DNA from: Phycisphaerales bacterium
GTDB taxonomy: Bacteria > Planctomycetota > Phycisphaerae > UBA1845 > Fen-1342
Length of the DNA: 36,114 nt
Reading direction: 5' to 3'
NCBI GenBank assembly: GCA_020427345.1
Contig: JAGQOO010000007.1
Coordinates: 1 to 36,114 of the forward strand
Shown: positions 31,682 through 35,306 of the stretch, one piece after another
How the letters are laid out: each line of letters starts with the position of its first letter
How positions within the stretch are numbered: position 1 is the stretch's first letter
Notes under the pieces: generated by a model
What the model was told of the DNA's origin: nothing
The model's database searches: none
The model's input: the letters and a program-made list of their open reading frames with translations, nothing else
Program-made: the position numbers and the translations under genes

Positions 31682-31807
31682 TCAGAACGAGATGTTGATC
31701 CCGTTAAAGATGTCGGTCAGGAAGCCGAACAGGCCGTTCAGCAGGTTGTTGAGAAACCCGAAAAGAGCGCCCAGGAATCCGTCGAGCGAGTCCTGAAAGT
31801 CCAACAT
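31682..31807 (-). CDS. 41-aa amphipathic peptide of 11-residue repeats
   Basis: A perfect AGGAGG (31815-31820) lies 7 nt before ATG 31807. The product starts MLDFQDSLDGFLGA and then contains two adjacent 11-residue repeats, LFGFLNNLLNG and LFGFLTDIFNG, ending INISF. An 11-residue period is three helical turns, typical of amphipathic helices lying on membranes or lipid particles. No basic N-terminus or cleavage site is seen. It is co-directional with the TPR and AsmA-like genes 174 nt downstream and divergent from the serine hydrolase. A TATGAT (-10-like) lies at 31882-31887 on the same strand. I recognise no family. Confidence 0.6.
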   Translation of the reverse strand: MLDFQDSLDGFLGALFGFLNNLLNGLFGFLTDIFNGINISF

Positions 31808-32070
31808 CGGTCGGCCTCCTGACGATCCGGCGCTGCGCCAGGGTCCAAGCCCACAGACTCCCCGCAGCGCCACCGCTCGGAATCATATGGCGCCACTGCC
31901 TGACCGGCGACCCGCCGCCCCGATCCGGATTTTCTCCGTTTCTCGAAAATCTCTGAAAGAAACCCGCCGCAGCCCGGCCACTTGGGATGCAGGCCACATC
32001 GGCGACGGACGCCGACGGTGGCGACCGAATGGAATCCGCTCAGGGAACTTGAGAGCTAGGGAGAAACACG

Positions 32071-34374
32071 ATGTCGAGCACGTGGCGAATCAGAATCGGG
32101 CTGGGAATGGCCGCCATCGGCCTCTCAGCGGGTTTGGCGGAAGCGAAGCCGTGGATCATGCGGCATGGCCAGAACGCCCAGCAGTACCAGGACTACTACG
32201 ACAATGAGTTGCCCGCGGGTTTTCACCCGATTTCGGTCAACGTCAACGGTACAACCGCAAATCCGCGGTTCACCACCGTTTTCGTTTCAGACGGCGTTGC
32301 CGATGGCGACTGGGCCGCGCGACATGGGCTGGATTCGGACGGCTACCAGAATGAGACCGTCGCACTCGACGACCTCGGTTTCCGCGTGATCGCGGTCGAC
32401 GCGGTTGGCGATTATCCGAACGAGACCTATGTGGCGGCGTATGTGCGCGACGGTGTGTCCGACGCGGACTGGTACGCGCGTCACCGCATGACAGACGCAG
32501 ACGTGCAGAACGAGTTCACCTTCGCCCAAGCGAACAACTTCCGCATGATCTACTTGTCCGGCTATGGATCGGGCGCCAATCGCCGCTACGCGGCGGCGTT
32601 TGTTCGCAATTTCGAGGGCATCTCATGGACCGCGGCGTGGGGCATGGACACGGCGGGCTACCAGGCGATGTTCAACGGATTGTGCCGGGGCGGATTCCGC
32701 CAGACCGGGACCACGGTATATGGCACAGATGCCAATCCGACCTACGCCGGTGTCTGGGAGCGTCCGGACGGTCCAAACTTTGAGATTCAGAAGCGACAGC
32801 ATGTCCGCGCGGGTCTGACGGGGCAGGAGTATCAGGACCTCGCGACAGACTTTGAGAACACGCCGTGGCAATCGACCTGCGCCGTTGAGTACGGCACGCC
32901 GGGCAACGAGCGGTACGCCGTATGTTGGGAAGAGGATCGCGGCCCGTCATTCTGGACGGAGAACGGGCAGGTCGTTCCCGAACTCGCCTCGCTCGACCAG
33001 GTGATGCAGAATTTCATGACAACGCGCAAGGTTCCGCACGGTTCGCTGGCCGTCACCTATCAGGGCAAGCTCGTCTACTCGCGGTCGTTCACGTACGCCC
33101 CGGCGGATGAGCCAATCTCGACGCCGAAGAGCCTGTTCCGCATCGCCAGCATCTCCAAGCCGATTACCGCGATTGGTGTCTTCCAGCTGATCGAAGACGG
33201 GATCATCGACCCGAACGCGACGCTGGGCTCATTTGACTTCTTCGATGTCAGCGGCTGGTGTGATCCGGAGGCCCGCAATATCCGCGTCAGCCATGTGTTG
33301 CGCCACCTCGGCGGGTGGGACCGCGCGTGGCAGACCGGCGACCCCAACGGGATTACGCAGCTTTGCGGGGCCGGCGCCGGCACGCAGCGCAGCTATTTCG
33401 ACCCGATGTTCAATAACTACGCGACTGCGGCGGAACTCGGTGGCATCGGTTTGCCGGTGTCGCAACTCAACCTGATGAACTACATGCAGCGCTGGCCGTT
33501 GAACTTCGCTCCCGGCACGGGCTACGAGTACAGCAACTTCGGCTATATGTTGCTTGGCCGCGTCATCGAGGAAGCCACGGGGCAGTCGTATGAAGACTAC
33601 ATCCGCGACAACGTTCTGTGCCCGGTCGGATCGCAGGGAATGATCCAGGGCAAGAGCCTTTGGGAAGACCGCCAGGAGTATGAAGTCGAATACAGCGATC
33701 CGATGCGCCGCTGCTCGAACAGCGCATTCGCCACGGACCCGAACAACCCGGAGCAGGTCGCGATTCAGTACGGCGGTTACAACATCGAGAACATGGACTC
33801 GCACGGCGGCTGGGTCGGTTCAGCGTCGCACCTGGTCCGAATCGTCAATGCGTTCACCGATCCGAACAACAGCGTGCTGCTCAACAAAGCCACAATCCAG
33901 CGGATGTGGATGCCCACGGCGTTGTCGGGCGGCGGCTATGCGGCCGGGTGGCAGGTGGGCAGCATGGATCGCTACCACAACGGCAGCCTCGACGGCGCGT
34001 GGACGTTCATGTCGCGGCGCAACGACGGCATCTGCTGGGCGGTCGTGCTGAATCAGAAGAGCAGCGACGCGAATACGCCGGTGCAGAACAACGATTGGGA
34101 CATTCGCACGAACATCCAGAACGCGCTCAGCGCGATGCCGTCCAGCCCGAGCGCGTGGCCGCGTCACAACCTGTTCGGCATTGGTAACAAGTTTGATCTG
34201 GACTGCAGCGGCACGATTGACCTGTCTGACCTGGCCGGGTTCCTGCCCAGCTACGGAGCGGCGGTCGGGGCGGCCAACTACGATCCGGCCATCGACGTGG
34301 ACGGCGACGGCGTGATCGGCCTGCCGGACCTCGCCGGCATCCTGGCCCACTTTGGTGAGCGGCTGCTCGAATAA
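32071..34374 (+). CDS. Secreted beta-lactamase-fold serine hydrolase with polyglycine-hydrolase-like repeats and dockerin-like tail
   Basis: This 767-aa protein has a signal peptide (1-25) and AGGGAGAA before the ATG. Residues 40-310 hold about five repeats with an RHGLDSDGYQ/WGMDTAGYQ core, like the bacterial tandem repeats found in polyglycine-hydrolase-type proteins. The class C beta-lactamase/PBP-like domain follows, with SISK (Ser360, Lys363), YSN (Tyr487-Asn489) and HNG (His636-Gly638) replacing KTG. The C-terminus has EF-hand loops DLDCSGTIDLSD (709-720) and DVDGDGVIGLPD (742-753), as in dockerins. It probably cleaves a peptide or ester outside the cell; the substrate is not predictable. 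No beta-lactam resistance is implied. Confidence 0.9.
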   Translation: MSSTWRIRIGLGMAAIGLSAGLAEAKPWIMRHGQNAQQYQDYYDNELPAGFHPISVNVNGTTANPRFTTVFVSDGVADGDWAARHGLDSDGYQNETVALDDLGFRVIAVDAVGDYPNETYVAAYVRDGVSDADWYARHRMTDADVQNEFTFAQANNFRMIYLSGYGSGANRRYAAAFVRNFEGISWTAAWGMDTAGYQAMFNGLCRGGFRQTGTTVYGTDANPTYAGVWERPDGPNFEIQKRQHVRAGLTGQEYQDLATDFENTPWQSTCAVEYGTPGNERYAVCWEEDRGPSFWTENGQVVPELASLDQVMQNFMTTRKVPHGSLAVTYQGKLVYSRSFTYAPADEPISTPKSLFRIASISKPITAIGVFQLIEDGIIDPNATLGSFDFFDVSGWCDPEARNIRVSHVLRHLGGWDRAWQTGDPNGITQLCGAGAGTQRSYFDPMFNNYATAAELGGIGLPVSQLNLMNYMQRWPLNFAPGTGYEYSNFGYMLLGRVIEEATGQSYEDYIRDNVLCPVGSQGMIQGKSLWEDRQEYEVEYSDPMRRCSNSAFATDPNNPEQVAIQYGGYNIENMDSHGGWVGSASHLVRIVNAFTDPNNSVLLNKATIQRMWMPTALSGGGYAAGWQVGSMDRYHNGSLDGAWTFMSRRNDGICWAVVLNQKSSDANTPVQNNDWDIRTNIQNALSAMPSSPSAWPRHNLFGIGNKFDLDCSGTIDLSDLAGFLPSYGAAVGAANYDPAIDVDGDGVIGLPDLAGILAHFGERLLE

Positions 34375-34430: not shown

Positions 34431-34509
34431 TCGAGGGTCGCTCGGCGCAGGCGCGCCGGGCGATCCTTTCTTCTATAGCTCGGAGGGCAACCAACAAAGG
34501 GAGACCGCC

Positions 34510-34887
34510 ATGCAGAGAGTGGTGGGCGCGCTTGTCACGATCGCCATTGTCGGAGGTCTGGCCTATTTTCGTTTTCAGGCGAACGAAGCGACGGATCAGA
34601 AGATCGACGACACGTTGTCGATTGTCGTGGAGCACGTTCAGCAACTGCCAAGCTACAGCCAGAACTCGGCGTTCTTCGATCTTCACCTGGAAAGTGCGCA
34701 CAGCGCCGCATTCAACTCCGCCTATTCGTCGGGCGGCCGCCGCAGCCCGGCTCGATTCGACGCGGCGAAGTACGCGAAGGTGTTCTGCGAGCACCTGAGC
34801 AAACGGGCGCAGGAGAAGGGCGACCAGAAACTGGACGTCGAAATCCGAGACATGCAGATCAAGCTGGAACAGGCGCTGGATTCCTAG
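34510..34887 (+). CDS. Small anchored protein, first of a paralogous pair
   Basis: ATG 34510 is chosen because AAAGGGAGA precedes it and a hydrophobic anchor (about 4-22) starts there. The 125-aa product then has ATDQKIDDTLSIVVEHVQQL, an aromatic/His-rich middle (AFFDLHLESAHSAAFNSAY), RFDAAKYAKVFCEHLSKRA, and a charged C-terminal helix. It is a single-pass or uncleaved-signal periplasmic protein. The next gene encodes the same layout. No known domain is recognised. Confidence 0.78.
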   Translation: MQRVVGALVTIAIVGGLAYFRFQANEATDQKIDDTLSIVVEHVQQLPSYSQNSAFFDLHLESAHSAAFNSAYSSGGRRSPARFDAAKYAKVFCEHLSKRAQEKGDQKLDVEIRDMQIKLEQALDS

Positions 34888-34922: not shown

Positions 34923-35306
34923 ATGAAGCAAACGGCGATCGGGTTTCTGGTTTGCCTCGTGGCGTTCAGCGGCCTGGCCTACTACAAGTCGCAATCTGAA
35001 AAGGCCACGGACCGCCGGATCGGCGCCACCATAGCGCTCGTCCAAGGGCAGGTTCGGGAGTTGCCGAGCTTTGAGGCCAAGCGGGCCTTCTTTGAGCGCT
35101 ATCTTGATCTGGCGCACGACACCGCGTACAGCACGGCGTACACGCCCGGGACGCGCCAGATCCCGGCGAGCTTTGATTCAGGAAAATACGCGCGTGTGTA
35201 CTGCGATTTCCTACGCCGGCACGCCAGGACGGCCGGCGAGAAGAAGCTGGAACAGGAGTTTCGCGACCTGGAAGTCCGACTGGAAGAGGCGCTGCCGTCT
35301 GACTGA
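34923..35306 (+). CDS. Small anchored protein, second of a paralogous pair
   Basis: This 127-aa product aligns over its whole length with the preceding one: hydrophobic anchor ending LAYYKSQ, ATDRRIGATIALVQGQVREL, FFERYLDLAHDTAYSTAY, SFDSGKYARVYCDFLRRHA and a charged C-terminal helix. The shared residues are the LP-S, FF, L-x-x-AH, SAY/TAY, FD-x-x-KYA and a Cys. It starts 35 nt after the first gene behind GGGAAAA, so the two are an operon formed by tandem duplication. It ends 8 bp from the convergent regulator gene. Function unknown. Confidence 0.8.
   Translation: MKQTAIGFLVCLVAFSGLAYYKSQSEKATDRRIGATIALVQGQVRELPSFEAKRAFFERYLDLAHDTAYSTAYTPGTRQIPASFDSGKYARVYCDFLRRHARTAGEKKLEQEFRDLEVRLEEALPSD

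Follow-up and report, generated by a model that had tools for sequence, protein, structure and literature searches.

A 41-residue reading frame on the minus strand of a 36,114-nucleotide stretch of Phycisphaerales DNA (hereafter the window) is a genuine, selected gene, and its product is the first to be seen of a large and undescribed group of micropeptides, which has so far been found in one planctomycete order only. Annotation largely misses small proteins, and planctomycete envelopes are still poorly understood. The product, MLDFQDSLDGFLGALFGFLNNLLNGLFGFLTDIFNGINISF, contains no lysine, arginine or cysteine, and probably acts at the membrane surface as an amphipathic helix. An earlier, sequence-only reading had the coordinates and the 41-residue sequence right without naming the strand, and had pointed to the AGGAGG at an ideal distance from the start codon. 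The features are as follows.

31682..31807, minus strand: peptide gene (family A), 41 aa; ATG at 31807..31805, TGA at 31684..31682
31820..31815, minus strand: Shine-Dalgarno (SD) sequence AGGAGG, 7 nt 5′ of the ATG
31910..31882, minus strand: predicted sigma-70-type promoter, TCGCCG-N17-TATGAT, with a weak −35 element (shuffle p = 0.01)

A conserved micro-gene under purifying selection

Of 61 relatives searched, 27 held a match, and many of the matches are full-length with 42–65% identity. Extending the search by profile to 114 genomes of the order produced a clean break between weak matches and 22 strong full-length homologues (E ≤ 1e-7 with the first profile, ≤ 1e-11 with the refined one), which we call family A. 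Every strong homologue, 37–47 aa long, has its own start codon, SD sequence and stop, the SD-like hexamer lying mostly 6–7 nt 5′ of the start (range 3–9 nt). As start, SD and stop are kept in 22 genomes, the reading frame is far beyond chance. Family A is under purifying selection: pN is below pS in all 210 pairs that can be formed from 21 members, and the two pairs that are closest to each other have a dN/dS of about 0.05/0.34 and 0.16/0.80; closest-pair ratios are about 0.15–0.25. Its codon usage is that of the adjoining genes. The sequence-only reading had proposed to search related genomes for the frame and to compare synonymous with non-synonymous change, and was prepared to give the gene up if relatives lacked a conserved frame or carried substitutions that break it; the frame is present and intact in the homologues, and selection acts on the encoded peptide.

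Some of the matched records are metagenome-assembled genomes labeled Phycisphaerales/Phycisphaerae and Planctomycetota. Outside the order, no convincing homologue was found in the class (397 genomes) or the phylum (294 genomes); the weak matches there sit inside longer reading frames or in different ones and do not pass the detector described below, with the exception of one spurious reading frame (L292). Viral contigs, phage records and plasmid records likewise yielded no homologue. The earlier proposal of an undescribed small peptide holds: the peptide is under purifying selection and has no significant match in Pfam, NCBIfam, PHROG or Rfam, PDB searches returned chance-level short matches only (e.g., 14 residues of a 39-residue photosystem II subunit, E = 0.39), and no survey of small proteins in planctomycetes turned up among the papers whose text was searched.

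A wider group of lysine- and cysteine-free peptides

The weak profile matches within the order, which we first took as noise, are further SD-preceded, lysine-free, phenylalanine-rich reading frames of 29–45 aa that mostly open with M-[FL]-D or M-F-F. Searching with one of these peptides and with a profile delivered two further families, B (of the MFDFGSIFQQLIAGISDVFVNQILSLISSLFGGLLG type) and C (of the MFDIGGFLSSTEFFAQLASIITAVLNTFFGDLLLGLFGGM type). Together with orphans, the superfamily comprises about 56 distinct peptides of 29–47 aa in about 50 of the 114 genomes, a larger group, often with several loci per genome, that the earlier reading had missed; two or three loci each, three being the maximum, occur in G032, G041, G043, G044, G056, G060, G066, G100 and G106. 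The 56 peptides total 2,209 residues, among which there are no lysines, no cysteines and four arginines. Genome-wide counts are based on HMM matches and on a DNA control of 800 kb, for which two of the order's genomes were tiled. On this control, which holds 1,401 SD-preceded starts of suitable length, our detector gave no match, and in the 36-kb window it accepts the 41-residue gene alone. The detector demands K + R ≤ 2; family A and the strong family B and C matches were found by homology, where no such limit applied, and K + R = 0 holds for nearly all of them.

Kinship between families A and B is suggested by profile alignment (hhalign probability 89%), a value that can be suggestive only at such length and composition. 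For some diverged members, homology is backed by shared position: a dnaE-like gene lies downstream in G014 and G021 as in G003, and two upstream genes are common to G099, G056 and G096. The strict avoidance of lysine and cysteine across so many peptides that have no Pfam, NCBIfam or PHROGs entry and no clear PDB relative is what makes the group noteworthy; its members are short and synthesisable, and thus easy to test, and the detector recipe can be used for finding such genes elsewhere.

Genomic surroundings and expression

The neighbours of the peptide gene are stable within clades and different between them. By our reading of the neighbouring sequences, a divergent GT4 glycosyltransferase gene adjoins it in part of family f1 and tpx (with trx) in family f7; elsewhere the neighbour can be dnaE, thrS (in family C) or a gene resembling geranylgeranyl reductase. 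The sequence-only reading had linked the peptide to genes for an exported TPR protein and an AsmA-like envelope protein on the same strand; these stand beside it in the window only and adjoin it at none of the 20 other loci examined, and we rejected such a partnership as its association is not conserved. Elsewhere in the window, a gene at 32071–34374 (plus strand) encodes an exported protein of 767 aa. This protein combines five BTRD1 repeats of polyglycine-hydrolase-like type with a beta-lactamase/esterase domain and ends in a dockerin-like segment with paired EF-hands. The gene is followed by adjacent paralogous genes for small proteins (34501–34887 and 34923–35306, both plus strand), which are 42% identical over 124 aa, carry an N-terminal hydrophobic segment and have no significant Pfam match.

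Sigma-70-type promoters are enriched on the sense strand upstream of the homologues (z = 9.1 overall). The enrichment stands at z = 8.9 in the 15 homologues that do not belong to the tpx-linked clade, and is absent within that clade (f7). There, tpx precedes the peptide gene in the same orientation with no promoter signal in between (L112, L113, L115, L118, L121 and L064), and the peptide gene is likely transcribed by read-through from tpx; a terminator-like hairpin separates the two genes in G049 and G111. Considering the upstream promoters and the clade-varying neighbours, the gene is a self-contained expression unit in most carriers. Intrinsic terminators showed no overall enrichment (9 found against 7.75 expected), strong ones following several f7 genes.

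It could be imagined that the peptide is a leader that controls a downstream gene, since a TPR gene follows on the same strand in the window, and since family C peptides lie a few hundred nucleotides upstream of thrS, again on the same strand, at eight loci of family f8 (L252, L232, L233, L269, L267, L249, L250 and L247). This we regard as very improbable and already disfavoured, as the downstream gene varies from clade to clade and often lies on the other strand, and what is conserved is the sequence of amino acids rather than the choice of codons or the structure of the RNA. Hairpins can be seen by eye in the window's 5′ UTR, but its fold is not significant (z = −1.5), and a structured 5′ leader was dropped as a candidate.

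The gene is missing from about half of the order's genomes, even within one genus. For instance, G046 has no peptide gene past tpx, where its congeners G049 and G058 carry one, and G024 (88% completeness) lacks the gene that its companion G007 has; at GT4- and Tpx-anchored sites of the genomes without a match, no hidden orthologue was found. Such absence indicates that the peptide is not a core structural part, and the patchy, multi-copy spread, together with the lack of a constant neighbour, suggests that the peptides serve a membrane function of planctomycetes that is self-contained.

Patchy, lineage-restricted spread over several loci is also what type I toxins such as Hok, Ldr/Fst, TisB and Ibs display, and they share with our peptides a size below 60 aa, hydrophobicity and a helical build; high diversity and the tandem pair in G056 (see below) would further fit a toxin-like peptide, whose small hydrophobic helix would depolarise the membrane once repression is lifted. 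We nevertheless consider this unlikely. A promoter scan found no antisense enrichment over, before or after the reading frame, and an antisense antitoxin was set aside on that account; a trans-encoded RNA is conceivable. The SD sequence is strong and not unusually occluded (accessibility 0.34 vs 0.32 in shuffles), and no toxin model in Pfam or NCBIfam matched at E ≤ 1. Most reviewed type I toxins bear positively charged residues that are important to membrane binding (PMC8309996), from which the present family is essentially free.

A predicted amphipathic helix and its candidate roles

The family A consensus, MLDFxxSLxxFLxSLFGFLNxLLNxxFGxLAxFFSGLxxxx, has four invariant positions (F11, F18, F27 and L30) and a fifth, L23, that is nearly so. 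Across 21 members there are no lysines, no cysteines and two arginines in total, and phenylalanine makes up 19% of residues; by inspection, the N-terminal M-[FL]-D-[FIL], in which there are no basic residues, provides no Sec-type signal. AlphaFold2 predicts a single helix for the window peptide (residues 4–36, pLDDT 90.6) and for family B (4–35, pLDDT 86.8). Along the family A alignment, mean hydrophobicity has its maximum at 98 degrees (3.67 residues), which is the 11/3 period (permutation p = 0.0005), and bears out the amphipathic helix of 11-residue period that had been proposed from the window alone. The two adjacent 11-residue repeats described at the same time are indeed present there, with 7 of 11 positions identical (p = 0.0009 against full shuffles, p = 0.013 against shuffles that keep the hydrophobic/polar pattern), but as a family-wide description they are too literal: the best adjacent 11-mers in relatives share 2–8 of 11 residues, the literal pair being confined to the window peptide and a few other members. 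Therefore, the conserved feature is the amphipathic periodicity rather than a sequence repeat. Nor is 11/3 a constraint on the whole superfamily, given peaks at 94 degrees in family B and 88 degrees in family C.

Helices of 11/3 periodicity in apolipoproteins, perilipins and synuclein serve as lipid-body coats elsewhere, and the exact period of family A, with its weakly charged polar face, invites the idea that the peptide coats lipid bodies or storage granules inside the cell, or controls their size. We find this rather improbable: the likeness in period is limited to family A, families B and C departing from it, and no gene for lipid or PHA synthesis was seen to be linked. The peptides here are, moreover, single 41-aa helices that are far more hydrophobic, almost uncharged and unrelated in sequence, and several recognisable tandem 11-mers, as in apolipoproteins and synuclein, do not recur across family A members.

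Hydrophobic moments of 0.55–0.72 and strongly favourable interface partitioning scores in family A agree with the earlier membrane-active reading, most likely in the form of a membrane- or interface-active amphipathic helix. Octanol-scale sums also permit a true transmembrane helix, which speaks against placement at the interface only, and with both sets of scores favourable, surface-bound and membrane-spanning states are not distinguishable. A small accessory subunit that belongs to a membrane enzyme or regulates it, comparable to CydX, KdpF or AcrZ, would likewise be a single helix under purifying selection, present as one copy in most genomes; it is quite unlikely in our view, since no neighbour is conserved across clades, several diverged paralogues can occur within one genome, and the amphipathicity is strong, unlike that of a plain transmembrane helix.

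The explanation we prefer, though we judge it evenly poised between right and wrong, is that of an anionic amphipathic helix that attaches to a lipid interface and associates with further copies of itself, its gene being expressed autonomously and free of antisense repression. What the data establish is the gene itself, its selection, the composition and helical periodicity of its product, the autonomous placement and the promoter enrichment; membrane location, self-association and function are inferred. The micro-gene would be transcribed constitutively from its own promoter without an antisense RNA to hold it down, and the signal-less peptide would fold into a helix of ~33 residues upon meeting a lipid interface. 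Its F/L face (F11, F18, F27, L30 and L23) would insert in the lipid while the narrow G/S/N/D face packs against further copies, and the assembled copies might constitute a small structural or pore-forming element on or across the membrane. The net negative charge counts against lipid-interface binding, as it disfavours contact with anionic phospholipids.

Signal-less, short, cysteine-free amphipathic helices rich in F and L are also found among staphylococcal phenol-soluble modulins (PSMs), which raises the prospect of a secreted surfactant or fibril-forming peptide that coats surfaces or builds matrix. We hold this to be doubtful, as the present peptides are lysine-free and anionic, no ABC exporter is conserved at the loci, and Pfam, whose models include PSM and delta-lysin, gave no match to these at E ≤ 1.

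For the preferred lipid-interface helix, the closest known parallel in mode is the set of PorA, PorH and ProtX of the corynebacterial mycomembrane (45, 57 and 38 aa), which have no identifiable signal sequence; PorA and PorH are predicted to be helical and have been proposed to form a hetero-oligomeric pore, and ProtX has no sequence homology to them (PMC12632848, PMC5310785). Our peptides resemble these proteins in being short, predicted helices without a signal sequence. They differ in lacking lysine and cysteine and in being encoded by usually solitary genes, whereas PorA and PorH come from paired genes and all three proteins are O-mycoloylated. Mycolic acids are not known from planctomycetes. 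Owing to the missing mycolate context, the usual lack of a partner gene and the lack of any sequence relation that we could find, we do not class the peptide with that group. It is conceivable, if improbable, that the whole lysine- and cysteine-free superfamily (A, B, C and orphans) builds pores out of alpha-helices, or assembles itself into a coat, in the Gram-negative-type planctomycete envelope; it would then be a helical counterpart of the beta-barrel porins outside the mycolate-containing actinobacteria.

A second peptide gene was not detected nearby at 20 of the 21 family A loci. At the remaining one (L063, in G056), a diverged peptide gene, MFFDTISRGILDVFQATFGTLLDGFLAALTTIINDLLNITL, lies 375 nt upstream of the family A gene in tandem, and the two may possibly form a two-peptide pair.
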